52,524 nucleotides of DNA, taken from positions 1 through 52,524 of the forward strand of contig JAGAJN010000019.1 in assembly GCA_017828975.1 (NCBI GenBank), written 5' to 3'. Source of the DNA: Oscillospiraceae bacterium. Its GTDB lineage: Bacteria > Bacillota > Clostridia > Oscillospirales > Ruminococcaceae. How positions within the stretch are numbered: position 1 is the first letter of the stretch; each line of letters starts with the position of its first letter. Below, in pieces: positions 21,837-48,400 of this stretch. Below the pieces are notes generated by a model, which had not been told where the DNA came from, did not search any database, and saw only the letters and a program-made list of their open reading frames with translations. A program made the translations under genes and the position numbers.

Positions 21837-23219
21837 TTACATTTCATCTGTCAGCTTAACCTTTACCGCTTCTATATCCTTTATTATGTTTTCCTCAGAA
21901 AGCTTATCAAAAGGCAGAAGCAGATCGTGGATACGCTCACTGTCATTGCGAACTGCACCGTATCTCCGGTTGTTAAGGTAATAATATCTGCACCAGCGGA
22001 TATGTTCAAGCTCGGCTATCTCCTCAATGCTCATATGCTTTTCGTTATACAGCCGTTCAATAACATATGTATAATCGGCAGAGCTTATGTTTGAGTATCT
22101 GATGAAAGAATTCTGCTTGTCCCAATGCTCTCCGCCGTATTTGCGCACGTAATATTCATGCTGCTTTACAGCACGGTCAAGGGTTTTCTGATTGATGATA
22201 ACGTCAATATCTGCGACCTCCTCCGACCTGCCGAAGCAGCGGATATTACTGCCGCCGTAAATGGTTTCGATAACTCTTTGGTCGGGGGAATAGATGTCTA
22301 TCTGCGCTGAGGACGGTTCCATGCAGAAAAGCAGCTTGCTGAGTATCTCAATATTGTCGGAGCCGTCGCTGCAGATGATTATCCTGTCGCACTCGGAAAT
22401 AAGTTTTGCATCGGCAAACGGGTCTGCGCCGTGGAAAACTATCTCGTCAAGGTCTATCCTGTCAAGCTCCCTGTAAAGCTCCCGGAACTCTCCGCTTTCG
22501 CCCCAGATATGGTATTCAAAATGCTGGTCACGGCTGATGATGTTCATCTGCAAGCCGAAGGTCAGCATATTTTGTCCCAAACAGCCGAAGCCTATCAGGG
22601 CAATTTTTTCCGAGCTTACGGGATAATATTCTCTCCAGTAAAGTCTGGCACAACATTCGTAAATACTGAAGGTGACAACATTTTTGCAGTCGATATTCTG
22701 CCGCCTGATATTTTCAAGGCGGATATACACATTGTTGTCCTTCATTTTGTCGTAATTCTCGGCGTAGAATTCGAGATTTTTGTTATCGTCGGAGAACATC
22801 AGTACATAATTGCGTCCGTTTTCGATAAATTCATCTACCCCCGAAACGCAGCGGCTGTTTCCTATGCTTTGGCATAAATGTGCGGCATGGGCGGATCTCC
22901 CGTAAACCACATAATTCTTTTCGGAACCCGCCCTGAAATAGTCAAGCAGCTGCTTTGACTTGTCCAGAACGCTGATTATCAGGCTGAGTGCAAAGAACAT
23001 CGCCGCAAATTTCGCTATATGCAGTATAAGCGGCGTATCTATCCCTTCCACCGCATCTCCCGTATATAGCTTTAGAGCGGCATATGCGGCGTCCAGCAGT
23101 GGGTATCTTACGCCCGATTCATTATAGTGGGGATAATAAAATATTACACCTATCACAAAGGGCGATGCGATCAGGGCGATCTTTAAAACGCCCTTTATCC
23201 GGGTATTTTCTTTGTTCAT
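21837..23219 (-). CDS. 2TM / TrkA-N-like / RyR-domain membrane protein
   Basis: 460 residues. Two membrane helices (~8-29 and ~62-86) flank a short re-entrant-looking segment (LLDAAYAALKLYTG), as in a two-helix channel pore. A Rossmann-like region follows (VVYGRSAHAA ~103, then the dinucleotide motif IGFGCLGQ ~205), TrkA-N/RCK style. The C-terminal ~110 residues match the bacterial RyR domain ('ELEHIRWCRYYYLNNRRYG…RNDSERIHDLLLPFDKL'). It is probably a ligand-gated ion-conducting or sensing membrane protein. The frame extends to a TTG at 23258; ATG-23219 with AAAGGA is preferred. It lies 35 bases downstream of an HD-GYP gene, in one operon. Confidence 0.8.
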   Translation of the reverse strand: MNKENTRIKGVLKIALIASPFVIGVIFYYPHYNESGVRYPLLDAAYAALKLYTGDAVEGIDTPLILHIAKFAAMFFALSLIISVLDKSKQLLDYFRAGSEKNYVVYGRSAHAAHLCQSIGNSRCVSGVDEFIENGRNYVLMFSDDNKNLEFYAENYDKMKDNNVYIRLENIRRQNIDCKNVVTFSIYECCARLYWREYYPVSSEKIALIGFGCLGQNMLTFGLQMNIISRDQHFEYHIWGESGEFRELYRELDRIDLDEIVFHGADPFADAKLISECDRIIICSDGSDNIEILSKLLFCMEPSSAQIDIYSPDQRVIETIYGGSNIRCFGRSEEVADIDVIINQKTLDRAVKQHEYYVRKYGGEHWDKQNSFIRYSNISSADYTYVIERLYNEKHMSIEEIAELEHIRWCRYYYLNNRRYGAVRNDSERIHDLLLPFDKLSEENIIKDIEAVKVKLTDEM

Positions 23220-23254
23220 AGCATGACTGTTCCTTTCCGAACTGCGTGCGTCGT

Positions 23255-24574
23255 TCAAATCATATTTTCGCTGCGATAGATCTCTTCCACCTTGTCCCTG
23301 TTTGCCATAAAAATATCCACAATATCGGGGTCAAAATCCTTTCCCCGTCCCTTTTGGATAATGTCGTAGCATTGCTCCAGCGGCATTGCGTCACGGTAGC
23401 AGCGTTTTGCGGACACGGCACCGAACACGTCCGCAACTGCCATTATACGGGCACAAAGCGGAATATCTATCCCGCTGAGTCCGTCGGGATAGCCCTTGCC
23501 GTTCCATTTCTCGTGATGATACCTTGCCACCTGAAACGCCATGCTTTCATAGTCGTCGTTATAGAGATGCCCGAAGGTGTCCTTGATTATCTTGCCGCCG
23601 ATAACGGGGTGCTGCTTCATCTTTTCATATTCCTCGTCGGTAAGCTTTGCGGGTTTTTGAAGGATAGCGTCGGGAATTCCTATCTTGCCTATGTCGTGCA
23701 TAGGTGCGGACTGGTCCATATTGTTGAGGAAGTCCTTCGTTATAATATTTTTGTACCGCTCGTCATTTCTCAGCTTTTCGGCAATAAGGCAGGCGTATGC
23801 GGAGGAACGTCTGATATGTCCGCCTGTGTTGTCGTCCTTGTTTTCGACAAGTGTTGCAAAGCCCATTACCATTTCGTGGTGATAATGCTCCAGCTCAAGG
23901 ATAGACGGGTTTTCCATGTTCAGATAAATGCTGAGCGTCGCCATAACTATTGCAACGCAGGTCACCAAGGATTCGGGGAACATCAGCTGAACAGACATTA
24001 CCGCAACAATGAGGACAAGTGATGTGTAGATATTTATCTTCTTCCTTTTCGGAATATACCTGTGCTTTGTTATGATGATACCGGCAGTCAGCAGACAGTA
24101 CACCGCAGCCGATGCAAAGCAGATGTAGACCGCAGTTCCCATAGAATAGTTAGTGTATCTGCCCTCGATAAATTCCACATGGGGCATGAAAAATACGGTA
24201 AATGCCGCCGAAAATACGCCCGGCAGGACATATGCAGCCCTTACCCATTTGTTTTTCTTTAGTCCCACCGTTACCGAAAGCCAGTAGAGAAACAGCAGGA
24301 TAACATATAATTCGTAGGACAGAAACATTCCCAGATGCAGCAAAAGATTTACCGTCCTCGGTATAATATCAAGATAATTTACCGTACAGGCGGTAATGCC
24401 GTCAAACAGCACGGCTATTTCCGAAACAATATACAATGCGCTGTAAAACGGGTTGCAGTTTGACTTATTCATAAGCTTGTTCAGTCGTTCGCCTTCGATT
24501 ATGTATAATATCCCCACATAAATCAGCACAAGCAATGCCATTATCTGTGTCTTTGCATATTGCAGAATTTCCAT
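23255..24574 (-). CDS. Membrane HD-GYP-domain phosphodiesterase
   Basis: 439 residues. Seven or eight N-terminal membrane helices (~5-205, a 7TM-receptor-like arrangement) precede a linker and an HD-GYP domain. The metal-binding pair is His293-Asp294 in 'APMHDIGKIGIPD', and HHEKWNGKGYPDG (His353-His354) carries the GYP signature. Expected activity is c-di-GMP (or related cyclic dinucleotide) hydrolysis at the membrane. ATG-24574 has AAAGGTGAT; the frame itself opens at 24592. It is co-transcribed with the RyR-domain gene. Confidence 0.9.
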   Translation of the reverse strand: MEILQYAKTQIMALLVLIYVGILYIIEGERLNKLMNKSNCNPFYSALYIVSEIAVLFDGITACTVNYLDIIPRTVNLLLHLGMFLSYELYVILLFLYWLSVTVGLKKNKWVRAAYVLPGVFSAAFTVFFMPHVEFIEGRYTNYSMGTAVYICFASAAVYCLLTAGIIITKHRYIPKRKKINIYTSLVLIVAVMSVQLMFPESLVTCVAIVMATLSIYLNMENPSILELEHYHHEMVMGFATLVENKDDNTGGHIRRSSAYACLIAEKLRNDERYKNIITKDFLNNMDQSAPMHDIGKIGIPDAILQKPAKLTDEEYEKMKQHPVIGGKIIKDTFGHLYNDDYESMAFQVARYHHEKWNGKGYPDGLSGIDIPLCARIMAVADVFGAVSAKRCYRDAMPLEQCYDIIQKGRGKDFDPDIVDIFMANRDKVEEIYRSENMI

Positions 24575-24622
24575 AATATCACCTTTCCGCATAACGTAAA
24601 AAGAAAAATCTTCCTATCTGCT

Positions 24623-24722: not shown

Positions 24723-26966
24723 TCAGGATTTATCCGTTTTATCGCAGTAAGCCAGTCCCAGACCGACTGTGGACATATAGCATCTGCCGTAAACGTTCAT
24801 ATCTCCGATAACGAAGTCGCCGTTGCCGGGGCCGCCGAACATATGCTGATCGTCGTTTACTCTTACCCAGCTCTTGCCCTCGTCCTCGGACATCCAGAGG
24901 TTTCTGTCAGTGCCCTCCTCGGTAACGGGAACACCCCAGATGTAGATAACATAGGGGTCGCTTTCGGTCTTGCCGATGCCCACGCCTACCGCATCGCAGA
25001 GCTTAACGGTGTCGATCCTTGTGAATGTGCTGCCGTGATCGGTGGAAACGTTCAGACCGTTGATGGTGCTGTAAACCATACCCTCAATGTCCGCACAAAC
25101 GGCAAATCTGCTGTGCTCGCCCATGCCGTTGACAGTCTGCTTGAAGGTCTTGCCGCCGTCGGAGCTTACATAGAATGAGCCCTTGCCGCTTGCATACACA
25201 TAGTCGGGATTTACCGAGTCGCCTCTTACGCTCATATTGCCCATAATGCCTTCGCACTTAGCCCATGTTTCGCCGCGGTCGGTGGTGTAGTATGTGGAAT
25301 GGAGGTTTTCGGGGCTGTAAATGATAGTGCCGCCGTCAGCTGTCACGCATATCTTTCCGCCTGTGGGGATCTTGCCTTCTTCGGGGGAATTTTTCACCTT
25401 TGCCCAGCTGTCGCCGCCGTTTTCGCTGTAAAGGATAGTCAGCTCCTTGTCGTTGTTGCCGCATTTTACCCAGACATCGTGGTTTGCTCCCGCAACGTCA
25501 ATTCCCGTAGTTGTGCCGACTGCATAGGTGTGAAGTCTGCCCAGCTTGAAGATGTCGCTGTGGTCGTAGCCGTCGTAGTCACCGATAGCGGTAACAAGGT
25601 TTCCGCCCTTAACGCTGACAGCGTCCAGAGGAACGGTTTCCTCAATGCCGTATGCGTTGAAATAGAACTTGGGTGCGTCGTCCCAGATATTGTCGCAGGC
25701 GAAAACGCCGTTGCCCGATGTTACCATAAGCCTGTCGGGATTATAGGGGTCGAGAAGCAGAGAGCCGCACCAGTGGATAGCATAGTTTGTTATCCATTCG
25801 CAGCCGTTGTTGTCCATCTGCATAGTGCCTCTATCCAGCAGGCTTGTCCAGGTCTTGCCGCCGTCGGAGGTGAAATAGAAATCGTCGCCGTAAGCGCCGT
25901 TGGGCTGCTGTTCCCATCTGTTGATGGTGCAGGATACCATTTTGTTGGGGTCGTCGGGGTGAACCACAACATCGGCGATAGGATTGTCCTTCGGTGTAAT
26001 GTCGGACATTTTCTCGGAAGCGGGGTCATAGATGTACAGTCCGCCGAAGCCGGGGTTCCAGGGACCTTCCGCATTTGCTGCGGTGATAAGCAGCTTGCCC
26101 TCGCTGTTCATCTTCATTCGCATGGGCATATATTTTTCCTTGGGCATCTTGTCGGGAAGCTCAGCCCATGTAACGCCGCCGTCCTTGGAAACGAAGATGT
26201 TGTTGGTTTTCTTGGAATCCTCGGAGATAGCCGCATAAACGGTGTCTGCGGTCTTATTGTCGTAAACGATAGAGCATACGCCCGTAGCATTTCCGGTAGA
26301 TGTAACGGGGAAATCAACAGCCGCCCATGTCATACCGCCGTCGGTGGAGCGGATAACGCCGCCTGTTCTTCCGCCGACGAGAATGTTCTTGCCGTTGTTG
26401 GGGTCAACAGCGATACGTTCGCCGTTCTGTCTGCCCATGCCGTTTCCGTGGGCGGTGATAAGATTGGTCACTTCCACCTGAGTGAAGCTGTCGCCGTAGT
26501 CGTGGGAAACAAGGATAGCCGTCTTGCCGCCGCTGAAATACGAACAGCCTGCCAGCATATAGACGTTGTTGGGGGCTGAGGGGTCAACCGCAAGACCGTC
26601 GATGGAAAGCAGTCCTCTGTCAGGCTCGCTGATATTGTAGGAAAGGCATTTCCAGCGTTTTTCCTCCTCATTCCAGCGGTATGCGCCGCCAACGTCCGTT
26701 CTTGCGAAGAACAGGTTTTGTTCGGTGGGGCAGGAGATAAGTCCCGTAACAAATCCGCCGCCGCCCATAAACACCTGACCGTATGTCCAGTCGGGGTTCA
26801 CATAGCCGAGGTCTGCGGACTGTATCTCCGCAGCGGTGGTTTCAGCTGCCTCGGCAGACGTTTCCCCGCTGTCGCCGCTGTTGTCCGATTTGCAGCCTGT
26901 CAGGGAAAAGACACTCATCATTACAGCAGCCGCCAAAGCCGCCGCTTTTTTCAGTCTGAGCTTCAT
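24723..26966 (-). CDS. GH74-family xyloglucanase lipoprotein
   Basis: 747 residues. The lipoprotein signal ends SLTGC (Cys25), followed by a Ser/Ala/Thr/Glu linker. From ~63 the protein has the GH74 double seven-bladed propeller with Asp-box repeats ('STDGGMTW', 'SKDGGVTW', 'SENGGDSW', 'TTDRGETW'). 'GGGGFVTGLISCPTEQNLFFARTDVGGAYRW' gives catalytic Asp91, and 'AIGDYDGYDHSD' gives the second, Asp463. It should cleave xyloglucan or related beta-glucans at the cell surface. The start is ATG-26966 behind ATGGAGG; a longer frame starts at 27005. It has its own promoter and stands alone. Confidence 0.88.
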   Translation of the reverse strand: MKLRLKKAAALAAAVMMSVFSLTGCKSDNSGDSGETSAEAAETTAAEIQSADLGYVNPDWTYGQVFMGGGGFVTGLISCPTEQNLFFARTDVGGAYRWNEEEKRWKCLSYNISEPDRGLLSIDGLAVDPSAPNNVYMLAGCSYFSGGKTAILVSHDYGDSFTQVEVTNLITAHGNGMGRQNGERIAVDPNNGKNILVGGRTGGVIRSTDGGMTWAAVDFPVTSTGNATGVCSIVYDNKTADTVYAAISEDSKKTNNIFVSKDGGVTWAELPDKMPKEKYMPMRMKMNSEGKLLITAANAEGPWNPGFGGLYIYDPASEKMSDITPKDNPIADVVVHPDDPNKMVSCTINRWEQQPNGAYGDDFYFTSDGGKTWTSLLDRGTMQMDNNGCEWITNYAIHWCGSLLLDPYNPDRLMVTSGNGVFACDNIWDDAPKFYFNAYGIEETVPLDAVSVKGGNLVTAIGDYDGYDHSDIFKLGRLHTYAVGTTTGIDVAGANHDVWVKCGNNDKELTILYSENGGDSWAKVKNSPEEGKIPTGGKICVTADGGTIIYSPENLHSTYYTTDRGETWAKCEGIMGNMSVRGDSVNPDYVYASGKGSFYVSSDGGKTFKQTVNGMGEHSRFAVCADIEGMVYSTINGLNVSTDHGSTFTRIDTVKLCDAVGVGIGKTESDPYVIYIWGVPVTEEGTDRNLWMSEDEGKSWVRVNDDQHMFGGPGNGDFVIGDMNVYGRCYMSTVGLGLAYCDKTDKS

Positions 26967-27032
26967 AGATTTTTCCTCCATAAAATTTTGTATACGATTA
27001 CACACGCCTGCTCACACACAGGCACTTACATA

Positions 27033-27543: not shown

Positions 27544-29313
27544 TTAATCCAACAGCACCAGCAGCCCATTATTAAGCATCTCCATTTCCTTTGTCTTAAC
27601 GGGGTGTCCCCCCGACAAAAGCGACTGAACATACAGCACCGCAGCCGCCGCCTTCAGCTTTTCCTCACGGTCGGTGGAGATAAGCTTTTTCACCAGCGGA
27701 TTGTTTGCGTTGAAATACAAGGTGGAGTGTCCCAGCCCCTCAAATTCCTCGCTGAATGCGTCCAGCATCTCCGAAAAAATATCCAGACCCGCCGCCTTTG
27801 AACGCTTTATGTCCCGAAGGATACGTGCATTTTCATCGGTAACAAACAGCGCAGGCAGCTGCTCGGGGGAGAAGCTTTTCAGGGAACACATTATTTCATC
27901 GTCGGAAACGGCATCATTCGCCGCCTGTTCAAAGCGTCGGACAACATCACGGTCAACGCCCTCGGGGTCGGAGAGAATTCCTTCAATGTCGCTGTCCTCC
28001 ACCTCCTTGATGTCCGCAAAGGCGTTTTTCTCCGCAAGCTTGCGTATAAGTGAAGTGTCGTAGACATATCCCGCATTGACCAGAAGCTCGCCCTGCGCCC
28101 TGTAAATGGACGAAAGCTGACGGAATCTGTCCAGCTCGGGGGTATAGCTTATCCGTCCCGCAAAGCTGCGTATCTCGCTGCCCGTCATTTCGCCAAGAGA
28201 GGTTTCAAAGGTCAGATGCGGCATGAAAACGTTAAAAAGCTCGTCGTCCTCGGCGGCAATGGATTTTACCGCAAGGCTGTGGATAGTCACGATGCGTTTC
28301 AGCAGCGGGGGATTTGTCCTCGAAATTCGCATAAGATATTTGCTGATACATTCGCCCAGCTCTTTTCTTGCGGCTTTCAGATTGTCGTCATCGTAAAAAT
28401 CCTCACGGGACGCTGTGGGACGCAGTCTTGCCGTATTGAAAAAGCAGCGGACGAAAAACGCCCATTTCGGCAGTATGGACTTGCCGTCCTCGGTCAGGAG
28501 CATATTTTTCAGGTAAATTCGGTGCTTCTGCTCGGCATTTGCCGCCACGGAATAGGGCAGGATATACGCCGCCCCGCTGAACAGTCCCGACTTTGATTCC
28601 AGCGGGATAAAGTCTATGAAATTCTCCCCGAAAAGCGCCGTGCCAAGCTGCATAACGCTTTCCTTTGTGCTGCCGCTGACGGCGGGGAGAGTGTTTATCC
28701 GCCTGAGTTCGCCGCCCTTTTTTATGCAGACGGGGAAGGGCAGTGGCAGACCATAGTAAAGGATAAGCTCGCTGACACGTTCCTCGGTGAAATAGTCCTC
28801 TGCGCCCTGCTTTGCCTTTATGACAATTTCCGTGCCTATCTCACATTCTCTGAGGGCGGGACGGATAGTGTATGTACCGTCGGGTCTGCCGTGCCACTCT
28901 ATGCAGCTGTCCGGCTGACGGAAGGAGCGGGTGCGGATAAGTATCTCGTCGGTCACCATAAAGCAGGACAGCAGACCTATGCCGAACCGTCCGATATAGT
29001 CGGCATTTATCATACCTTCTTCAATATCCCGCTTGGAGGATTGCCCGATAACAGCCAGAAAACGGTGTATCTCCTCCTCGGTCAGACCCGTGCCGTTATC
29101 GGTGAAGCGAATGGTTTTCCCCTCGTCTATCTCAACGGTGATAAGTCCGCCGTTTTCGGGGAATTGCTTGTCGGCGGTCTGCCTTGCGGAAATTGCATCA
29201 ACGCCGTTTTGCATAAGCTCACGGACGAAGACGTCGGGGCTGCTGTAAAGGTGGTTTGACAGAATATCTATCATTCCGCCTAAGTTTACTTTGAATTTGA
29301 AATCGTTTTGCAT
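27544..29313 (-). CDS. Short, divergent Hsp90/HtpG-family chaperone
   Basis: 589 residues. The N-terminal GHKL ATPase carries 'VFVRELMQNGVDAI' (catalytic Glu and Mg2+-Asn), 'FTDNGTGLTEEE' and 'GRFGIGLLSCFMV'. The middle domain keeps 'IYLKNMLLTEDG' and 'RPTASREDFY', with the Arg used in ATP hydrolysis. The C-terminal dimerisation region is shorter than in E. coli HtpG. This is the non-canonical bacterial Hsp90 branch. A long upstream frame (to 29403) overlaps the S41 gene's 3' end; ATG-29313 with AAAGGA is the likely start. It is the last gene of the TetR-S41-Hsp90 unit. Confidence 0.88.
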   Translation of the reverse strand: MQNDFKFKVNLGGMIDILSNHLYSSPDVFVRELMQNGVDAISARQTADKQFPENGGLITVEIDEGKTIRFTDNGTGLTEEEIHRFLAVIGQSSKRDIEEGMINADYIGRFGIGLLSCFMVTDEILIRTRSFRQPDSCIEWHGRPDGTYTIRPALRECEIGTEIVIKAKQGAEDYFTEERVSELILYYGLPLPFPVCIKKGGELRRINTLPAVSGSTKESVMQLGTALFGENFIDFIPLESKSGLFSGAAYILPYSVAANAEQKHRIYLKNMLLTEDGKSILPKWAFFVRCFFNTARLRPTASREDFYDDDNLKAARKELGECISKYLMRISRTNPPLLKRIVTIHSLAVKSIAAEDDELFNVFMPHLTFETSLGEMTGSEIRSFAGRISYTPELDRFRQLSSIYRAQGELLVNAGYVYDTSLIRKLAEKNAFADIKEVEDSDIEGILSDPEGVDRDVVRRFEQAANDAVSDDEIMCSLKSFSPEQLPALFVTDENARILRDIKRSKAAGLDIFSEMLDAFSEEFEGLGHSTLYFNANNPLVKKLISTDREEKLKAAAAVLYVQSLLSGGHPVKTKEMEMLNNGLLVLLD

Positions 29314-29371
29314 AATAACGTTCCTTTTCAATGGTTTATGTATTTCGCCCCGCCGAAACACAAGATTATAT

Positions 29372-31066
29372 TTACGCTGCAACAGCGGGCATATCATCAA
29401 CATCTGCCGCTATTTTGTCGAGAACATATTTCAGCTCGGTGTCCCACAAAAGGCGGTTTTCGTAGGTAAGAGTGTCCTTGCCTTCAAGACGCAGCTTGCG
29501 GTTGATAACATAGTCATCACGGGTCAGAGTAACGTAAATATCGGGAGCGGAGCAGTAAACGGAGTTATCCTTTCCGTCCGAGTTAAAGGCGATAAAGGGG
29601 GAATAGTTGAAGACCAGCCCGGTTTCAGGCATTGACTGACACATAAAGGTTGGTGCAATGCCCTCGCCCTTGGTGTTTTCGCCGACTATGGTCGCAAGAC
29701 CGTTTTTGCTGAAATAATAGATAAATTCGTCGGTGAGAGATGCCGAGTTTCGTCCCGAAAGAATGTAAATATCCCTGTCCTCCGCAGCAAGCTCACCGGT
29801 ATATTCTCCGTCGTATTCATTATATTCGTTGAATTTGTACCAGCTGTAAGCGCTGTCTGTTTCAAAGGGCAGTTCGGCGGGGGACAGCTTTTCGTGGGAA
29901 TAGTAAAGGCTTTCAAAGAGGTCGCCGAAGGGGTTGCAGTTGTACTTGTTAAGCTCAAGATAGGACTCGTTGTCGATTATCATTTTGTCCTTGAAGAGGG
30001 GAGCGTAAATATTTTTCTCCCAGAAGCCCGTAATGCCGCCGCCGTTTTCACGGACGTCAAAGATGATATGACGACATTCGGCATACTTTTCCATTTCCGA
30101 TTTAAGCTTTTCGCCGTCGAAATAGTCAAAGCTTGTGAATTCGGCATAAAGGGTGTCTGTTTCTTCGGTGTAAACAAGGGTGTAGGAGCTTTCATCGACC
30201 TCCTGCATTGCCTCCTCAAAGTCGAAATCGGTGAGGACTGCATATGCCGATGCCTCATTGTAGGCGGTTTCACGTTCAAGGCTGTAATAAAGCTTGATAT
30301 TCTTTGTAGTGCCGTCGTCGCAGAGAACGAGAGCGTCCAGCTCCTCGCCGTCTGTCAGGTTAAAGGAAATGTTGTCACGGTAGGGGATATTGTTTTTGAA
30401 ATCGTAGCTGAGCTTTGAGTAAAACAGGTGCTCGTTCACAAATTCCGAAACGGGTCTGCCGTTTATCTCAAGAATTTCCTGACCGAATTTTTCACGCAGC
30501 TCGGGCTTTTCGTATTCAATGTTCATATAGTGACCGTCGCAGTAAAGGAAAAGTGCGGAGTTGTCCCTGTCATACAGCGGCTCCATTTTTTCGCCGAGAT
30601 ACTTGTTCCATGCGTCCGCAATACCGCCGATATTCGGTCGGAAACGGACATGCTCCGCATTAAAGCACATCTGCGACGCAATATAGCTTGACTGCATATA
30701 GCCCATATAGGTGTGGCAGTTGGGAACGTCCGCCAGCACGGCATTGCACAGGACGTAAAAATCAAAGCCGTTTTCGCACTGCTCAGCCATTTCACGGTAC
30801 TTTGCACATTTCTCGTCAAAGTCAAAGCCGTATAGCTTTTCGCTTTCGGAGATGTTGGGGATACCCGTGCGGAGAACATCTATCATATAGTCGAAATCGG
30901 ACAGCATCTGCTCCTTTGTCGGCTCGGTGAATTCTATCTCCTTATAGGTAAATGTGTCGATAACATTGGCAATAATATTATCTCTGCCGGGAATACAACA
31001 AAAGACCAGAACGCATATCACGATAACGATAATAACATTTCCCGCAGTTTTCAGATGTTTCTTCAT
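29372..31066 (-). CDS. S41-family (C-terminal-processing-like) peptidase, membrane-anchored
   Basis: 564 residues. An N-terminal signal/anchor helix (~7-30) is followed by a ~200-residue accessory region and then the S41 fold. 'IIFDVRENGGGITGFWEKNIY' is the conserved strand before the active site, and 'YILSGRNSASLTDEFIYYFSKN' carries the presumed nucleophile Ser. 'IVGENTKGEG' and a C-terminal segment complete it. It acts outside the membrane. The gap to the TetR gene is 25 bases and to the Hsp90 gene 58 bases, so all three are probably one transcript. Confidence 0.85.
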   Translation of the reverse strand: MKKHLKTAGNVIIVIVICVLVFCCIPGRDNIIANVIDTFTYKEIEFTEPTKEQMLSDFDYMIDVLRTGIPNISESEKLYGFDFDEKCAKYREMAEQCENGFDFYVLCNAVLADVPNCHTYMGYMQSSYIASQMCFNAEHVRFRPNIGGIADAWNKYLGEKMEPLYDRDNSALFLYCDGHYMNIEYEKPELREKFGQEILEINGRPVSEFVNEHLFYSKLSYDFKNNIPYRDNISFNLTDGEELDALVLCDDGTTKNIKLYYSLERETAYNEASAYAVLTDFDFEEAMQEVDESSYTLVYTEETDTLYAEFTSFDYFDGEKLKSEMEKYAECRHIIFDVRENGGGITGFWEKNIYAPLFKDKMIIDNESYLELNKYNCNPFGDLFESLYYSHEKLSPAELPFETDSAYSWYKFNEYNEYDGEYTGELAAEDRDIYILSGRNSASLTDEFIYYFSKNGLATIVGENTKGEGIAPTFMCQSMPETGLVFNYSPFIAFNSDGKDNSVYCSAPDIYVTLTRDDYVINRKLRLEGKDTLTYENRLLWDTELKYVLDKIAADVDDMPAVAA

Positions 31067-31091: not shown

Positions 31092-31706
31092 TCAGTTGAG
31101 CTTATAAAGATAATCAAAGCTGCCTTTTTCCGCTTTCAGACAGGTTTCCATGACCTCGGAGATCAGCTTCATTCTGTTGAGCATTATCTGTGGGTCCTCC
31201 GAATACATTGTCCTGTCGAGAAAATAGGTAAGCACAGCAACAATGACTTCGGCGCTTTCCTTGGGCGTTTGGGAATGTATAGTACCCTCGGCTATGCCCT
31301 CATACATCAGCTGCTCCACCACGGGCGCGATCTCCTGAATTGCGGCGACATTTATCTTATGGTGGATATCGGGGTCCTCGTGGAGATTCAGCTTATGCAG
31401 CATATTCTTTTCATTTTCGCTGTAATCGCATTTTATGATGCTGTGAAAGAGAAGCTTCATCTTTTCGATAGATGAGGTTTCGGGGCGGTTGTGTATATTC
31501 TCAAAAAAATCCCTGACCGCACGGCGATAGCTTCTTTCCACAACAGCGTAGATTATCTCGTCCTTGCTCTTGAAATAGTAATAGACGCTGCCCTTGCCTA
31601 TGCCCGCTTTTTTTGCAATGGCGTCAACGGTTATATCGTTATAAGCGGCTTCGGAGATAAGCTCCTCGGTGGCTTTGAAGATAAGTTCTTTCTTGTCGGT
31701 TTTCAT
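31092..31706 (-). CDS. TetR-family regulator
   Basis: 204 residues. The N-terminal helix-turn-helix 'ITVDAIAKKAGIGKGSVYYYFKSKDEII' (~24-52) is typical TetR, followed by a helical ligand-binding region. It is divergent from the alpha/beta hydrolase gene, and two palindromes of TetR operator type lie in the shared intergenic region at 31820-31879, so it likely represses its own gene set and the opposite arm. Confidence 0.93.
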   Translation of the reverse strand: MKTDKKELIFKATEELISEAAYNDITVDAIAKKAGIGKGSVYYYFKSKDEIIYAVVERSYRRAVRDFFENIHNRPETSSIEKMKLLFHSIIKCDYSENEKNMLHKLNLHEDPDIHHKINVAAIQEIAPVVEQLMYEGIAEGTIHSQTPKESAEVIVAVLTYFLDRTMYSEDPQIMLNRMKLISEVMETCLKAEKGSFDYLYKLN

Positions 31707-31771
31707 AGTTTCCTGACGCTTCCTTTGGGTATTTTCACAGTAAATGATTGCTTGCTTTCGTTTACAATGTT

Positions 31772-31800
31772 ATTGTAACACAAAATTTGCATATTGACAA
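31772..31800 (-). promoter_or_regulatory. Promoter of the TetR/S41/Hsp90 operon
   Basis: On the minus strand, TTGTCA (31795-31800), a 17-base spacer and TACAAT (31772-31777). Confidence 0.7.
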
Positions 31801-31819
31801 GTTTTTTTCGGAAAAATAC

Positions 31820-31848
31820 TTGACCGTCGGTCGAAAATGTGCTATTAT
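31820..31848 (+). promoter_or_regulatory. Promoter of the acyl-transfer operon with overlapping operator 1
   Basis: TTGACC (31820-31825), a 17-base spacer and TATTAT (31843-31848). The -35 is embedded in the palindrome GACCG-T-CGGTC (31822-31832), so a bound TetR would block sigma-factor contact. Confidence 0.8.
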
Positions 31849-31862
31849 GAAAATCAGAGAGA

Positions 31863-31879
31863 TTCGACTGTCGGTCGAA
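31863..31879. promoter_or_regulatory. TetR-type operator 2
   Basis: TTCGACTGTCGGTCGAA, a 17-bp palindrome with one mismatched pair. It lies downstream of the -10 and 43 bases from operator 1, giving two sites around the promoter. Confidence 0.75.
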
Positions 31880-31905
31880 AAATATCGAAAGGAGCAGTTT
31901 TATAT

Positions 31906-32880
31906 ATGAATGGTACAGGAATTGCTGCGATAGTCGGCGGTGTTGCTCTGCTGGGTGCGGCAGGGGCGACTGCGGGCGCACTTACGCTTTTTAACCGTGT
32001 TATCCCACGTCAGGACCAGGTTCGTGTAAATCTTGACGAAATGGCGGATATGGCAAAATGGGAGGAGTACCGCAAGATAATCCGTCCCCGAAAGGAATGG
32101 ATATTGGAGCGCACTTCCGAGCATATCACCATAAAATCAAGGGACGACCTCACTCTCCACGGCGACTATTTCCCCGCCGATGACCCGTCGGACACTATCG
32201 TTATCGGTTTCCACGGATACACAAGCATGGGTATGAACGACTGCCCGTCCATCTGCAAATTTTTCCTGGAAAAGGGTGCAGACTGTCTTATCGTTGACAA
32301 CAGGGCACACGGCAAGAGCGAGGGAAAATACATAGGCTTCGGGATCCTCGACAGATATGATTGTCTGGAATGGATAAAATATGCCGCTAAGCGTTTCGGC
32401 GAGAACAAGAAGATCATACTGTTCGGAGTTTCCATGGGCGGTGCAACGGTGCTTATGACTTCGGGCTTCCCCGATATTCCCGAGAATGTCAAGGCTATTG
32501 TTGCGGACTGTGCGTTTACGTCCCCTTATGACGTTTTTGCGCATATCTTAAAGAGAGATTACCACCTGCCGCCATTTCCCGTAATGAACATCAACGATGC
32601 AATGTGCCGCAAAAAGGCAGGCTACGGTTTCCGGGATTATTCCACGCTGGACGCTATGAAGGTCACAAAGATACCGACTCTGTTTATCCACGGCAAGGAC
32701 GATGATTTTGTCCCCACCTGGATGAGCGAGAAAAACTACGTTGCCTGCGCCGCACCGAAAGATATGATGATCGTGGAAAATGCGGGACACGCCGCAAGCC
32801 TTTACGAAAACCCCGAGCGCTACGAAGCAAAGGTTGAGGAGTTTATAAACAAGTATGCGCCGATAAATTCGGCAAAGTGA
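31906..32880 (+). CDS. Membrane-anchored alpha/beta hydrolase
   Basis: 324 residues. A Gly/Ala-rich N-terminal membrane helix (~5-28) precedes an alpha/beta hydrolase fold. The visible triad is Ser176 in GVSMGGAT, Asp265 in GKDDDFVP and His295 in NAGHAAS; an oxyanion-type HGYTSMG precedes. The sequence resembles the 'YqkD/PldB-like' group of lysophospholipase/thioesterase-type enzymes. The start is ATG-31906 after AAAGGAG. It is the first gene of the operon with condensation-type, ACP and ligase genes, so it could release or edit the acyl chain; this is inference. Confidence 0.9.
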   Translation: MNGTGIAAIVGGVALLGAAGATAGALTLFNRVIPRQDQVRVNLDEMADMAKWEEYRKIIRPRKEWILERTSEHITIKSRDDLTLHGDYFPADDPSDTIVIGFHGYTSMGMNDCPSICKFFLEKGADCLIVDNRAHGKSEGKYIGFGILDRYDCLEWIKYAAKRFGENKKIILFGVSMGGATVLMTSGFPDIPENVKAIVADCAFTSPYDVFAHILKRDYHLPPFPVMNINDAMCRKKAGYGFRDYSTLDAMKVTKIPTLFIHGKDDDFVPTWMSEKNYVACAAPKDMMIVENAGHAASLYENPERYEAKVEEFINKYAPINSAK

Positions 32881-32906
32881 AGAATATGATGGGAGTGTAA
32901 AGCTAA

Positions 32907-34316
32907 GTGAAAGAGATTAACATTAACGGTTCGGTCATGAAATGCTATCCCCTGACAGCTGCGCAGAGGCTTCACCATTACACGGTGAAATATTGTCCCC
33001 GTCAGCAGGTGCTTAACATCGGTACGGGACTTTATGTCAAGGAGGACACCGATTTCAGGATACTGAAAAAGGCCATTTACAAGGCGTATGAGCGTTTTGA
33101 GTCTATGCGTCTGAGATTTATTGAGGACGAGGACGGAACCGTTTATCAGTATGTTGTCCCCTTTGAGGAAAGAGAAATTGGCTTCTGCGATTTCTCCAAC
33201 TGGAGAGAGGAAGCAGCCCACGACGAAATGAGAAAGTGGACTGCCGAGCCGTTCCCCCGCTACAATTCGCCTATGAACAAGGTGGTTATGATAAAGCTGC
33301 CCGGCGGATACAACGGAATTTATCTGAAGGTAGACCATATGACAATGGATTCCAGCTCCATTATCGGCTTTGACAGAGATGTGCTTGAGCTGTACTGTGC
33401 GGAAAAGTACGGCACACCCTACCCGAAGCCCATGCAGTCCTATATCAAGTGCATTGAAAAGGATCTGGCGTATGAGGCAGATTCCCCCGCAAAGCTGAAG
33501 GACAGCGAGTTCTTCGCCAAAGAAATTGCAGGCAGTGAGCCTATGTACACCGATTTCACGGGAATGGGCAGACTGCTCACTCAGCGCCGTGAAACAGGCG
33601 ATCCCAACCTGCGTTCCGCAATCATCACCTCCGACAGTCTGGACGCTTCCATTTCCGTTTATCACCTTGAAAAGGACCCCTCCGACAGACTTATGCAGTT
33701 CTGCCTTGACAACAATGTGCCTATGGCAAGCCTGCTGTTAATGGGTCTGAGAACGGTGCTTTCCAAGTTCAACAACGACGAGAAGGACGTTTCCGTCAAG
33801 AGCAATGTTGCAAGAAGAGGTACTCTCCTTGAAAAGCGTTCGGGCGGTACAAGAATTCACTTCTTCCCCCTGAGAACCATTATCGAGCCGGAAACCACCT
33901 TCCTTGACGCTATCAGAATTATCCAGACCGAGCAGAACAAGCTCTTCCACCACGCAAACAAGGACCCCATCGCCCTGACAATGGAGCGTTCAAAGCATTG
34001 GAAGCTTCGTCCCGGCGCAAGCTACGAGAGCATCAGCCTTACATATCAGCCCCTGACTCTCCAGCAGAAGGAGGCGGATATTCCCGATGTTCAGTATAAG
34101 AGCTTCTGGTACACAAACGGTGTTGCCGCTCAGCCTCTTTATCTGACTGTTATGCACCGTGTTGAGGACAATGGTCTGGACTTCAATTTCGAGTACAAAA
34201 AGGCTGTTGTTACCGAGTCTGAGATGGAATATCTGTATTACTATCTCTGCCGTGTTCTGTTCAGAGGTATCGAAAACCATAACCGCACTGTGGGCGAAAT
34301 TCTTGAAATGATTTGA
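32907..34316 (+). CDS. Free-standing NRPS condensation-type acyltransferase
   Basis: 469 residues, the size of a lone condensation domain. The catalytic motif HHxxxDG is present as DHMTMDS (His144 and Asp148 kept; first His changed to Asp, Gly to Ser), as in stand-alone acyltransferases (PapA/wax-ester types). 'GLRTVLSKFNNDEKDVSVKSNVARRGT' and the 'LTYQPLTLQ' stretch follow the C-domain pattern. The start is GTG-32907, behind GGGAG. It would join an acyl group from the carrier protein encoded next door to an amine or alcohol. Confidence 0.85.
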   Translation: MKEININGSVMKCYPLTAAQRLHHYTVKYCPRQQVLNIGTGLYVKEDTDFRILKKAIYKAYERFESMRLRFIEDEDGTVYQYVVPFEEREIGFCDFSNWREEAAHDEMRKWTAEPFPRYNSPMNKVVMIKLPGGYNGIYLKVDHMTMDSSSIIGFDRDVLELYCAEKYGTPYPKPMQSYIKCIEKDLAYEADSPAKLKDSEFFAKEIAGSEPMYTDFTGMGRLLTQRRETGDPNLRSAIITSDSLDASISVYHLEKDPSDRLMQFCLDNNVPMASLLLMGLRTVLSKFNNDEKDVSVKSNVARRGTLLEKRSGGTRIHFFPLRTIIEPETTFLDAIRIIQTEQNKLFHHANKDPIALTMERSKHWKLRPGASYESISLTYQPLTLQQKEADIPDVQYKSFWYTNGVAAQPLYLTVMHRVEDNGLDFNFEYKKAVVTESEMEYLYYYLCRVLFRGIENHNRTVGEILEMI

Positions 34317-34363
34317 TATTCCCATAAATTATGACCGAAAATACTATATTGGAGGATAAAAAA

Positions 34364-34591
34364 ATGCTTGAAAAAATGAAAGAGCTTATCTGCAACTATG
34401 TTGACGTTGACCCCGAAACCATCACAGACGATTCCAGATTTATCGAGGACTTAGGCTTTAACTCCTTCGATTTTATGAGCCTTCTGGGCGAGCTGGAAAA
34501 CGAGCTTGGCATTACCGTTGACGAGCAGGAGGTAGTTAATATCCACACAGTCGGTGAAGCCGTTAAGTACATCGAGTCCCGCAAGGCTTGA
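34364..34591 (+). CDS. Acyl/peptidyl carrier protein
   Basis: 75 residues. Four-helix ACP with DLGFNSFDFMSLL around Ser34, the phosphopantetheine site (N-S-F instead of the usual D-S-L), and the 'ITVDEQEVVNIHTVGEAVKYI' C-terminal half. A longer frame starts at 34331; ATG-34364 has GGAGG 9 bases upstream. It is 15 bases from the ligase gene and 47 from the condensation gene. It is probably the dedicated carrier of this pathway rather than the fatty-acid-synthesis ACP. Confidence 0.92.
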   Translation: MLEKMKELICNYVDVDPETITDDSRFIEDLGFNSFDFMSLLGELENELGITVDEQEVVNIHTVGEAVKYIESRKA

Positions 34592-34606
34592 TTTGAGGAG
34601 GATAAT

Positions 34607-36157
34607 ATGGACAAGAACAATATCAAAACACTTGCAGATCTGGTCAGACTTGCTGCCGAGGAATACGGCGAAAAGGCATACATAAAGGAAAAGGCTGACA
34701 ATGGCATAGCCGAAACCTCCTTCAATAAATTCTACGAAAACGCTATGAAGGTAAACGCCTTCATCAAGGACGTTTCAAAGGGGAACAAGGTCCACGCTGC
34801 CGTTATCGGTCCCACAAGTGCGGCTTATCTGGAGTGCTATTTCGGAACAGTTCTGGACGGAAATGTTATCGTTCCGCTGGACGCTCAGCTGGCTTGCCCC
34901 GACATCTGCGAGCTGATAAACCGTTCCGATTCGGAGATATTCTTCTATGATTCAAGATACACTCCCATGATCGAGCTTATCAAGAAAAGCTGTCCCGCTG
35001 TACATACTTATGTGTCATTGCAGGCTTGCGAGGGTGCGGACAATGTTCTTCCCGATATTCTTGACAAGTATCAGCCGACAGAGGGCAAGGACGCTGTTCC
35101 CGATGCACTTGCTTCTATCGTTTACACCTCGGGCACAACGGGCAAGCCCAAGGGCGTAATGCTCACCCACGGCAATTTCGTGGATAACACCACCTGTCAG
35201 GACAACGAAAGCTCTCCCGAGGACGAGCTGCTGACGGTTCTGCCCGTTCACCACGTTTACTGCTTCACCTGCGATATTCTCCTTTCCCTGAGATACGGTG
35301 CGACGGTCTGCGTCAATGATTCGCTGCTGAGAATTGCGGCAAATCTCAAGCTTTTCCGTCCGACGCTTATGCTGCTTGTCCCCATGATCGCAGAAACCAT
35401 TTACAAGCAGATAATGGCTGCTTCAAAGGCAAAGCCCGACGTTCCTCCCGCTATGATAGCACAGGCTGTTTTCGGCGGACGCTTAAAGGGAATTTACAGC
35501 GGCGGAGCATATCTCAGCCCCGAGCTTATCAAGGGATATAACGCCCTCGGTCTGCCTATTGCACAGGGCTACGGCATGACCGAATGTTCACCGAGAATTT
35601 CCACAGCGACCTTGCAGGACGAGTACAGCGAAGCAGTCGGCACTATCGTAAACCGCTGCGAGGTACGCATTGTTGACGGCGAAATTACCGCAAAGAGTCC
35701 CTCCGTTATGAAGGGCTACTACAAGGACGAAGCCGCAACCGCCGAAGCGCTTGATTCCGAAGGCTGGCTGCACACGGGCGACCTTGGCTACGTTGACGAG
35801 AAAAACCGCATCTTCATCACAGGCAGAAAGAAAAATCTTATTATCCTCAGCAACGGCGAGAATGTATCTCCCGAGGAGCTGGAAAACAAGTTTGCTATGG
35901 TCGACAAGGTTAAGGAAGTTCTGGTATATGCCGAGGACGGCGTTATTACCGCCGAGATTTTCCCGAATCTTGACATTTACGGCGAAGCTGACGACAAGAC
36001 TATCGGCGCAGACCTCAATCAGCTTATTATGGAGATAAACAAGACTCTGACTTCCTCCAAAACTATCCGCAGAATCCGTCTGAGAAGAGTGGAATTTGAC
36101 AAGACCACATCTAAGAAGATAAGAAGAAATCAGACCGTTCAGGGCGAGATCGTTTGA
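34607..36157 (+). CDS. Acyl-AMP ligase (AMP-binding, ANL superfamily)
   Basis: 516 residues. The P-loop YTSGTTGKPKGV (~170), GYGMTECSP (~320), WLHTGDLGY (~385), RKKNLIILSNGENVSPEE (~405) and the C-terminal 'TTSKKIRRN' Lys-rich adenylation motif are all present. The overall style is that of fatty-acid/ACP ligases rather than amino-acid adenylation domains. It would activate an acid with ATP and load it onto the adjacent carrier protein. It starts 15 bases after the ACP stop, and a strong terminator ends the operon. Confidence 0.92.
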   Translation: MDKNNIKTLADLVRLAAEEYGEKAYIKEKADNGIAETSFNKFYENAMKVNAFIKDVSKGNKVHAAVIGPTSAAYLECYFGTVLDGNVIVPLDAQLACPDICELINRSDSEIFFYDSRYTPMIELIKKSCPAVHTYVSLQACEGADNVLPDILDKYQPTEGKDAVPDALASIVYTSGTTGKPKGVMLTHGNFVDNTTCQDNESSPEDELLTVLPVHHVYCFTCDILLSLRYGATVCVNDSLLRIAANLKLFRPTLMLLVPMIAETIYKQIMAASKAKPDVPPAMIAQAVFGGRLKGIYSGGAYLSPELIKGYNALGLPIAQGYGMTECSPRISTATLQDEYSEAVGTIVNRCEVRIVDGEITAKSPSVMKGYYKDEAATAEALDSEGWLHTGDLGYVDEKNRIFITGRKKNLIILSNGENVSPEELENKFAMVDKVKEVLVYAEDGVITAEIFPNLDIYGEADDKTIGADLNQLIMEINKTLTSSKTIRRIRLRRVEFDKTTSKKIRRNQTVQGEIV

Positions 36158-45405: not shown

Positions 45406-45455
45406 GTAGAAAAGTGTCGAACATAATACTAAAAATATATTTCGGAGGGGTAAAA

Positions 45456-48400
45456 ATGGGTAATATCGTTTCAGTCGGCGGACATATAAATGCTTCAATA
45501 AATTTTGCCATGCAGCAGAATTATGTTCCTGTTATCAGATTTCTGACAGTTAACAACGAATCGGACCAATTGCTTGAAAACGTTGATCTGAAGATCAGCT
45601 TTGAGCCTGAATTTGCAAAAGAATTCAGATACCATATTGACAGTATTCCCGCACAAGGATCTGTCGAAATATCTCCCGTCAAAATAAATACAAATACGGA
45701 TTTTCTGTTTTCTCTCACAGAAAAAATGGTAGGAAACATAACCGTTGATGTTGTGCAGGGTGAAGAAGAGCTTTTTACATATCGGGACAGTGTCGAGCTG
45801 CTTGCACACGATCAATGGAGCGGTCTGACTATTATGCCAGAGATAATTGCTGCTTTTGTAACGCCCAATCATCCGTCCGTTTCGGCAATTATCCATGAAG
45901 CTTCAATGTTTCTGAAAAAATGGAAAGGCACACCCTCCTTCACAGGCTATCAGACAAACAACCCCAATAATGTCAAGCTGCAGATGGCAGCGATATATGC
46001 CGCTCTTGCACAGCAAAAAATCATTTACAACAATCCGCCCGCAAGCTATGAGATAATCGGACAGAGGATCCGCCTTCCCCATATTGTACTGGAACAGAAA
46101 ATGGGTACCTGTCTTGACCTTGCGGTGCTTTACGCAGCCTGCCTTGAAGCGGTCGGACTTAATCCTTTGTTATTCTTTATAAAAGGTCACGCATTCTGCG
46201 GCTGCTGGCTGGAGAACAACACCTTTGCAGACTGCTGTACCGATGATGTTTCCGCTGTTGAGAAGCGTATCGCAGCAGATGCAGAGGAAATGCTCCTTGT
46301 TGAATGTACCGATTTTGTTGACGGCACAGAACCTGATTTTGACCGTGCAGCAAAGCATGGAAAGGATCATCTTATAAATCTTTTCGACTTTATCTGCGTT
46401 ATTGATATACAGCGCAGCAGAGGCAGCGGTATAAGACCAATGCCGCAAAGCCCCGGGGCATCATTTTCGGGAATACAGCTGACGGAAGATGGGGGAAAGC
46501 CTAAGGAAGCTGCCGCTCCGTCCGAGCTTAACAGCTCTCTGCTCGGAAGAGTTGCCGAGGGTACAGATCAGCCGATAACAAAAATAAGGATATGGGAACG
46601 AAAGCTTCTCGATTTCAGTCTGAGAAATTCACTTCTGAATTTCCGCATCACCAAAAATACAATGCAGCTCATGACCGCTGACCTCGGAAAGCTTGAAGAT
46701 GAGCTTGCAGACGGAACTGATTTTCGCATTATGGAAATACCCTCGGAATGGACGCTGTCCGTCAGAGATGCGAAGATCTTTGCTATTGAAAACGAAAAAG
46801 ACCTTATCACGAGCATAGCAGAGGCTGAGTTTAAGAGCAAGCGGATAAGAACATTTTTAAGCGAAAGAGATCTCGATGCCGCATTGAAAAATATCTATCG
46901 TTCCGCCAAGCTCAGCATGGAGGAAAACGGCAGCAATTCTCTCTTTCTTTCTCTCGGACTTCTCCGCTGGTTTGAAAGCGACCTTTCGGAAAAGCCCAGA
47001 TATGCGCCTATCGTTCTTATCCCCATTGACATCGTGCGAAATACCCGAAACAAAGGTTATGTCATAAGAAGCCGTCAGGAGGATACCCAGATAAATGTCA
47101 CCCTCCTTGAATATCTGCGTCAGGATCACGGAATCAATATCACAGGTCTTGACCCTCTGCCCCTGGACGAGCATGGCATTGATCTGCCGCTGGTTTTCAA
47201 CACCATACGGCAGGCGGTAATGGGCAAAAAACGCTGGAATATTGTGGAATACGCTTTCATCGGACTCTTCTCCTTCAGTCAGTTCGTTATGTGGAATGAC
47301 CTTCGCAACCGCTCGGAGGAACTTAAGCAGAACAAGGTGGTTTCAAGCCTTATTGAAGGCTCTCTTACCTATGATCCCGATGATATTGAAGGCACCGACT
47401 CATCGCCCGAGCTTGATAATATGGCTGTTCCCATGAGTGCAGATTCATCTCAGCTTGCAGCCGTTGCCGCAGCAGGCAGAGGACAAAGCTTCGTTCTTCA
47501 CGGTCCTCCGGGAACGGGTAAATCCCAGACTATCACAAATATGATAGCCAATGCGCTTTATAACGGCAAAACGGTGCTTTTTGTCGCAGAAAAAATGGCG
47601 GCACTCAACGTTGTTCAGAAGCGTCTTGAAAACATAGGCCTTGACCCGTTCTGTCTTGAGCTTCACTCCAATAAGACGAACAAATCCTCCGTTCTTGCGG
47701 AACTCAACAAGGCTCTTGAAGTCGGCAGGATAAAATCTCCCGAGGAGTATTCCTCCGAAGCTGCAAGGCTCAAGGAACAGAAAAGAAAGCTCAATGAAAC
47801 CGTTTCGGCACTTCACGAAAAGCGGAGCTGCGGCATTACGCTTTATGAAGCAATTTCCGCATACGAGCGAAATAGTTCCGAGCAGGGAAAAATATCATTC
47901 TCTCAGGAGCTTCTTGAATCACTTACAAAAGAAAAGCTTGATCTTTACAGCGGGCTTGTTCATAAATATTCCGTGGCAATAGCCGAAACAGGCAGCTTTG
48001 CGGAGTATCCCTTAAATGATATAGGTATCTCCTCTTATTCCATAGAAATGCGCGACAAATTCCGCAAAGCAGCAAATGAGCTTGCCGAAAACGCAGCCGT
48101 ATCGGTACTAAACGCCCGTAAGCTTGCCGACATATACGGTTACAGCGGGACTATGGACAAAACAGCCGCTCAAATGCTTACGAAAATATATGAAGCCTGC
48201 CGTTTGGACGGAGAGCTTCTCCCCGACCTGCTTTCGGCTTCCCACTATGACATTGTTTTGCAGAAGATAAAGGATACTCTCGAAACGGGAAAGGAATACT
48301 GCGCACTTTGCACGGAAATATTTGAGAAATTTGAAAAGAGCATACTTGATTACCCTGCCGCCGAAGCAAAAATGCGCCGCAAGCAGGCTGAGGCTTCATG

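Follow-up and report, generated by a model that had tools for sequence, protein, structure and literature searches.

What product is made by an operon that encodes an alpha/beta hydrolase, a free-standing condensation (C) protein, an acyl carrier protein (ACP) and an acyl-adenylating ligase, and how is that operon switched on? The question is raised by a stretch of 52,524 nucleotides (hereafter the window) from an Oscillospiraceae bacterium. The window is contig C7 of its source genome, a 2.57 Mb assembly of 39 contigs that is 94.67% complete. An earlier note on this DNA had described the four genes as a tight operon divergent from a gene for a TetR-family regulator, and this arrangement is borne out, with every open reading frame (ORF) present and all the Pfam matches of Table 1 above their cut-offs. 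Dozens of other genomes show the same gene order, hydrolase-C-ACP-ligase, and the operon is therefore more than a chance grouping. We consider it very probable that these genes form a fatty acid amide (FAA) synthesis cluster of the C-T-A type (C protein, carrier, acyl-adenylating A protein) with a fourth core gene. The families, active-site residues, linkage and kinship behind this assignment are read from sequence, as are the conservation of the operator and its association with the TetR; the chemistry is taken by analogy from studies of the C protein OaaC and of Blautia, and the acyl chain, the amine, the part played by the hydrolase and the TetR ligand are inferred. The earlier note had seen the operon as unlike any known system of the nonribosomal peptide synthetase (NRPS) type; it is better placed with the C-T-A fatty acid amide operons of gut Clostridia.

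The condensation protein, its carrier and its ligase

The closest solved relative of the window C protein is PDB 12KH, which aligns to residues 12-469 (E 1.7e-117), the next solved C domains scoring 24.3 bits or less. This structure is that of OaaC, a free-standing C protein with which Coprococcus eutactus makes oleoyl aminovaleric acid. According to the main text of PMC13142362, OaaC makes fatty acid amides in vitro together with OaaA and OaaACP, forms a homodimer that is opened by holo or acyl ACP, and itself releases the product. The window protein and OaaC are 41% identical across 460 residues, their full length, and on the same profile OaaC scores 590 bits against 64.7 bits for the best solved modular NRPS domain, that of PvdL. 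Residues 143-149 of the window protein read DHMTMDS, matching the pattern (D/H)HxxxD(S/A/G) reported for the FAA type, whose C proteins are described as carrying a non-canonical (D/H)HxxxDS-type motif (PMC13142362, main text). All 106 aligned rows, outgroup rows included, retain this motif's second His and its Asp; it is the D/H and S positions that mark the FAA type. In a 55-row tree, which took every third of the close loci defined below (25 of 75), the C domains of L086, L088, L089 and L096 split off with support of 100/100 and the window lies on the OaaC side. The C domains of modular NRPSs belong to the same superfamily, and the FAA C proteins are said in that same text to be nearest to starter C domains; modular domains use carrier-bound acceptors, unlike the FAA C proteins (PMC13142362). 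The proteins of the window operon are all single-domain, with no fused C, carrier and amino-acid adenylation domains, and thus do not make up a modular NRPS. The window C protein is the sole Condensation match in the source genome, and one other genome of the same genus encodes a C protein 97% identical to it.

Between the C and A genes sits a stand-alone carrier whose attachment Ser is conserved in 92 of 92 aligned sequences, followed within the operon by a stand-alone acyl-adenylating ligase. The best NCBIfam model of the ligase is PRK06187, a long-chain fatty acid ligase (241.8 bits, below the cut-off of 476). It is 41-43% identical to the ligases adjoining the OaaC-type C proteins of L137, L140 and L141, and the residues of its TSGTTG, GYGMTE and TGDLG motifs are mostly retained in at least 79 of 91 aligned sequences. 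A second ACP is encoded elsewhere in the source genome, in a fatty-acid synthesis cluster with ketoacyl synthase, biotin carrier, FabZ-type, AccC and AccA/D genes. The genome thus encodes more than the operon ACP; a sole ACP, together with a ligase serving fatty-acid salvage, was what the earlier note had named as fatal to its pathway idea. One phosphopantetheinyl transferase was detected in the genome, a protein of 210 residues that matches ACPS and AASDHPPT_N and is encoded on another contig.

Linkage was assessed in two groups of relatives, with counts restricted to loci having room on their contig: close loci (L002-L080) and distant loci (L081 plus those of two further searches). Of the 87 confirmed relatives, 80 were retained; NCBI assigns 63 of these 80 loci to Oscillospiraceae and names no family for the other 17. 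The core set of 99 loci comprises L002-L081 and L125-L143 and leaves aside the window's self-copies, among them L100, the duplicate L144 (a second copy of L002 on the same contig) and the short copies L097-L124. The hydrolase gene adjoins the C gene in 74/74 close and 12/19 distant loci; the adjacency rule alone gave 72 close loci, and L029 and L070, which escaped the rule through the choice of C ORF start, were added from tblastn positions. The ACP gene adjoins the C gene in 71/72 close and 19/19 distant loci, and a ligase is present downstream in 67/68 and 17/17, respectively. On linkage in relatives, therefore, the pathway idea stands. An SCP2-family lipid-binding protein is encoded on at least 35 of the 99 core loci (34 within 2.5 kb) and a phosphopantetheinyl transferase on at least 13 (11 within 2.3 kb), both counts being lower bounds, as many loci end early. 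In such relatives an SCP2-family gene, and in some a phosphopantetheinyl transferase gene, comes after the ligase gene (L063 11238-12178, L016 11324-11743); in the window the next gene is an acetate kinase gene on the opposite strand. The distribution of the operon is patchy: in an order-wide sample 12 of 295 genomes match at E 1e-3, only the window and G279 being stronger than 1e-100, and in a class-wide sample 20 of 391 genomes, the window included, reach 1e-30.

These data support, at the level of sequence, the steps proposed in the earlier note: an acid is activated, loaded on to an ACP of its own and passed by a single C protein to a small free acceptor. By analogy, a small N-acyl lipid is the likely product. 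The ligase would use ATP to adenylate a free fatty acid, which it would load on to the phosphopantetheine arm of the small carrier. Taking this acyl-ACP as its donor, the C protein would then join the acyl group to a freely diffusing small amine, and would release the resulting N-acyl amine without a thioesterase. Physiologically, the operon may perhaps protect against toxic free fatty acids, a role that has been reported for Blautia.

Several observations nonetheless pull the other way. Identity to the tested enzyme falls below the 70% cut-off for CTA homologues used in PMC13060934 (OaaC being the only catalogued C protein compared against it), and at only 41% the substrates of OaaC cannot be carried over to the window protein. 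The tree is imperfectly rooted: two long outgroup rows, L084 and L085, fall on the FAA side with unsure placement. Among solved structures, the best relatives of the ligase are 4-coumarate-CoA (coenzyme A) ligases, ahead of fatty acyl ligases, and the acid is accordingly not settled. Finally, the close locus L057 has the hydrolase and C genes with no match to ACP or ligase in 7.8 kb downstream, and is either a broken operon or an assembly error.

The hydrolase and competing explanations

The fourth gene encodes a hydrolase whose catalytic triad (Ser176, Asp266, His295) is invariant in 88 of 88 aligned sequences. The solved proteins nearest to its profile are esterases: 5g59, an MHETase, a cinnamoyl esterase and EST1E. 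The window protein shares with 5g59, EST1E and the cinnamoyl esterases the alpha/beta hydrolase fold with its Ser-Asp-His triad; it differs in that the match covers only part of it and in that its family has a hydrophobic N-terminal segment. By a simple score such a segment is present in 74 of the 88 sequences; the more positive net charge falls after it in 46 of these and before it in 13, with 15 ties, a slight lean towards a cytoplasmic catalytic domain that depends on guessed start codons. A role as a type II thioesterase was considered and rejected, with no Thioesterase family among the seven Pfam families listed for the protein. In the FAA cluster proposed here, the N-terminal segment probably anchors the hydrolase to the membrane, and the enzyme would most likely supply the pathway with acyl groups released from esters; this is the weakest step of the scheme.

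Release of the product by the hydrolase, a step in the earlier proposal, finds no support as a necessary one, given that the C protein performs release in the system described in the main text of PMC13142362. Next to the C proteins most closely related to OaaC, four in all (L137, L140, L141 and L123/L145), no hydrolase was found, so FAA chemistry as such does not require one. Nor do the hydrolase-bearing loci form one clade: L081, L136, L138, L139 and L142 join the Ruminococcus set with support of 88/96, and in these five no hydrolase was found, L136 having too little room to judge. Such scatter in the tree implies that the hydrolase was gained more than once or lost.

A different role for the hydrolase has to be weighed, and of the alternatives it is the one that fares best, although we rate it as clearly less probable than not. 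The protein could be a recycling or editing enzyme that cuts the amide product or a stalled acyl-ACP, which would alter our scheme at the hydrolase step only. Its constant position beside the C gene in all 74 close loci with room, and its full catalytic triad, would suit such an enzyme; its nearest solved relatives, however, are carboxylesterases, and the absence of a Thioesterase match noted above also speaks against such a role. A bolder version of our own scheme, which we put forward tentatively and think rather improbable, is that the four genes form a transacylation system functionally distinct from the three-gene FAA operon, in which acyl groups stripped by a membrane esterase from membrane, dietary or plant esters would be handed by the C-T-A enzymes directly to a free amine under the control of an acyl-sensing, dual-operator TetR, Oscillospiraceae thereby converting ester lipids to N-acyl amines.

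The cinnamoyl esterases and EST1E among the hydrolase's nearest solved relatives, and the likeness of the ligase to 4-coumarate-CoA ligases in PDB, invite the idea that the operon makes amides of plant aromatic acids (bacterial phenolamides), the hydrolase freeing hydroxycinnamates, the ligase activating them and the C protein joining them to an amine. Many of the relatives come from deer, goat, sheep and 'Lapin' (read as rabbit) samples, which would fit a plant source. We nevertheless find this improbable: the C protein groups with a user of fatty acyl chains, the top NCBIfam model of the ligase is, though below cut-off, that of a long-chain fatty acid ligase, and ligase residues 205-330 are much alike in the ligases of OaaC-type loci. 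We take this stretch to be the location of the superfamily's acyl pocket.

C-domain folds are able to acylate alcohols, and the acceptor cannot be read from sequence, so that the C protein might instead make an ester or another O-acyl lipid. This seems more improbable still, as the tested relative OaaC makes amides (PMC13142362, main text) and Blautia that bear CTA make more acyl amines than Blautia without it (PMC13060934, main text). Least credible of all is that the ligase, a member of the fatty acid-CoA ligase family, and the ACP serve fatty-acid salvage with the C protein as a bystander, since 67 of the 68 close loci with room keep the C, ACP and ligase genes linked, the housekeeping ACP lies in the separate fatty-acid synthesis cluster, and the active-site residues of the C protein are retained.

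TetR and its putative operators

In the FAA cluster that we favour, TetR bound to two operators covering the -35 and start region would repress the operon, and repression would be lifted when a ligand, perhaps of the acyl or fatty-acid type, binds TetR. The best NCBIfam match of the regulator is FadR-type (56.3 bits, below the cut-off of 200). The motif GACYGNCRGTC was settled on after a first, looser inspection of the sites, and 64 operator sites give the consensus TYGACYGNCRGTCRA. TetR-bearing loci have 48 copies of this motif in their 18.2 kb of promoter sequence (2.63 per kb) as against four in 491 kb elsewhere (0.008 per kb), an enrichment of about 300-fold in the promoters. In loci without TetR there are 16 copies in 21.5 kb of promoter and two in the remaining 640 kb, and in 117 kb of loci without the hydrolase there are none. 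Counted by promoter, 32 of 38 with TetR and nine of 43 without it contain the motif (Fisher p 9.6e-9, relatedness ignored). Successive copies within a promoter are spaced 42-45 bp apart in 15 of 18 cases.

The tie between operator and regulator extends to genomes in which no TetR was found beside the operon. Eleven genomes have the operator and no TetR match on the locus, and in seven of them a TetR orthologue is encoded elsewhere, compared with none of 20 genomes lacking the operator (42-53% identity; hypergeometric p about 1.3e-4, calculated by hand, relatedness ignored). Four relatives (L154-L157) in which the TetR gene lies away from the operon were examined for the exact motif, and it was not found in the stretches covered near that gene. 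Four of the 11 operator-bearing loci (L010, L011, L048 and L080) have fewer than 600 bases upstream of the hydrolase gene, and there a contig end could hide an adjacent TetR gene. A wider TetR regulon was considered and rejected: the pattern YGACYGNCRGTCR occurs at three places in the source genome, two of them in the operon promoter and one inside an ORF on contig C12, and the reversed pattern gave six matches as against three per strand, so the lone site elsewhere means nothing.

Some of the evidence makes this regulatory part of the scheme less secure. A divergent TetR homologue is present in 34 of 62 close loci and a homologue of the window TetR in one of 19 distant loci, leaving 28 close and 18 distant loci with none above 60 bits. 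Promoters without TetR are themselves enriched for the motif, at 0.75 per kb. The exact motif is missing from six of the 38 promoters that have TetR, and two of these, in L019 and L134, lack it even when one mismatch is allowed. In four of the 11 operator-bearing genomes (L006, L048, L072 and L080) no TetR was found at all, though these metagenome-assembled genomes (MAGs) may be incomplete. Five of the 11 are rabbit MAGs that are probably kin, the two included in the tree grouping together; with this kinship and the short loci, independent TetR-operator events must be fewer than the counts suggest.

The wider locus and related systems

The positions of the operon, the regulator gene and the promoter elements are collected in Table 1. 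Gaps of 26, 47 and 15 bases between the four genes, with Ser34 as the attachment residue, had been given in the earlier note and are correct provided that the ACP gene begins at 34364, an in-frame ATG that on inspection of the sequence has GGAGG 8 bases before it; the alternative start at 34331 would give a gap of 14 and place the attachment residue at Ser45. For the hydrolase, the start codon of the longest ORF, at 31837, falls within the promoter between the two operators, and the in-frame ATG at 31906 comes after GAAAGGAG; on sequence grounds 31906 is the likelier start.

Table 1 Coordinates of the TetR gene, the operon and candidate regulatory sites in the window
Feature	Position	Strand	Basis and remarks
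TetR-family regulator	31092..31706	-	Divergent from operon; Pfam TetR_N E 1.7e-14
Alpha/beta hydrolase, esterase type, with hydrophobic N-terminal segment	31906..32880	+	Pfam Abhydrolase_1/Hydrolase_4; longest ORF 31837-32880
Free-standing condensation (C) protein, FAA type	32907..34316	+	Pfam Condensation 116.5 bits; PDB 12KH match
Stand-alone acyl carrier protein (ACP)	34364..34591	+	Pfam PP-binding; longest ORF from 34331
Acyl-adenylating ligase (A protein of C-T-A set)	34607..36157	+	Pfam AMP-binding 196.5 bits
Promoter-like site for TetR gene, TTGTCA-17-TACAAT	31772..31800	-	Consensus scan, 10/12; alone no proof of function
Promoter-like site for operon, TTGACC-17-TATTAT	31820..31848	+	Consensus scan, 10/12; TG precedes second hexamer
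Putative operator O1, TTGACCGTCGGTCGA	31820..31834	.	Overlaps -35 hexamer; conserved motif; own-genome pattern match 31821-31833
Putative operator O2, TCGACTGTCGGTCGA	31864..31878	.	44 bp from O1, downstream of -10 hexamer; own-genome pattern match 31865-31877

Beyond the TetR gene lie genes for an S41 protease (Pfam Peptidase_S41 above cut-off) and for an Hsp90-like protein (27544-29403, minus strand; NCBIfam PRK14083, 647.8 bits against a cut-off of 455), the two ORFs overlapping. Their suggested part in processing or folding the targets of the operon does not hold up: homologues above 60 bits occur in one of the 99 core loci, that of the same-genus genome L002 (69 of the 99 have at least 4.5 kb upstream of the C gene), and this arm is therefore local. 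The acetate kinase downstream was likewise rejected as a partner, matches above 100 bits being found in two of the 99 loci (L002 and L003). Elsewhere in the window, a 1932-residue protein (45414-51212, plus strand) combines DUF4011, AAA helicase parts, an MTES_1575 nuclease and DUF3320, and matches the PADLOC model PDC-S37 at 1189 bits, making it a candidate phage defence gene. A 760-residue protein with Sortilin/BNR repeats (24723-27005, minus strand) has a start that by eye resembles a lipoprotein signal, and homologues near the operon in L002 and L022. A 473-residue RyR-domain protein (21837-23258, minus strand) adjoins an HD-domain protein (23255-24592).

The C-T-A fatty acid amide operon was reportedly first described by Chang et al. 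in 2021. The window operon shares with the OaaA-OaaACP-OaaC system of Coprococcus eutactus the free-standing C, ACP and acyl-adenylating proteins and the DHxxxDS motif; that system comprises three proteins, to which the window adds a fixed hydrolase gene and a TetR with two operators (PMC13142362, main text). With the CTA operon of Blautia wexlerae and other Lachnospiraceae it shares the order of C, carrier and A genes and a predicted acyl amine product; at the 70% identity cut-off that operon was found in 36 species, all Lachnospiraceae, and it has been linked to acyl amines and to relief from toxic free fatty acids (PMC13060934, main text). The words 'hydrolase', 'TetR' and 'Ruminococcus' do not occur in the main text of PMC13142362, nor 'hydrolase', 'TetR', 'Ruminococc' and 'Oscillospir' in that of PMC13060934. 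Relative to these two main texts, and with no claim to priority, three things are new: that the operon occurs in Oscillospiraceae/Ruminococcus MAGs, that a hydrolase gene is its fixed fourth member, and that it has a putative TetR/operator circuit.

FAA clusters are reported to make hormone-like lipids that act on human receptors. A hydrolase-bearing, regulated form in Oscillospiraceae/Ruminococcus MAGs, many of animal gut origin, would enlarge the circle of expected producers. The hydrolase would supply a fourth enzyme to the pathway, and the regulator and its operator could be used to find the signal that switches it on.

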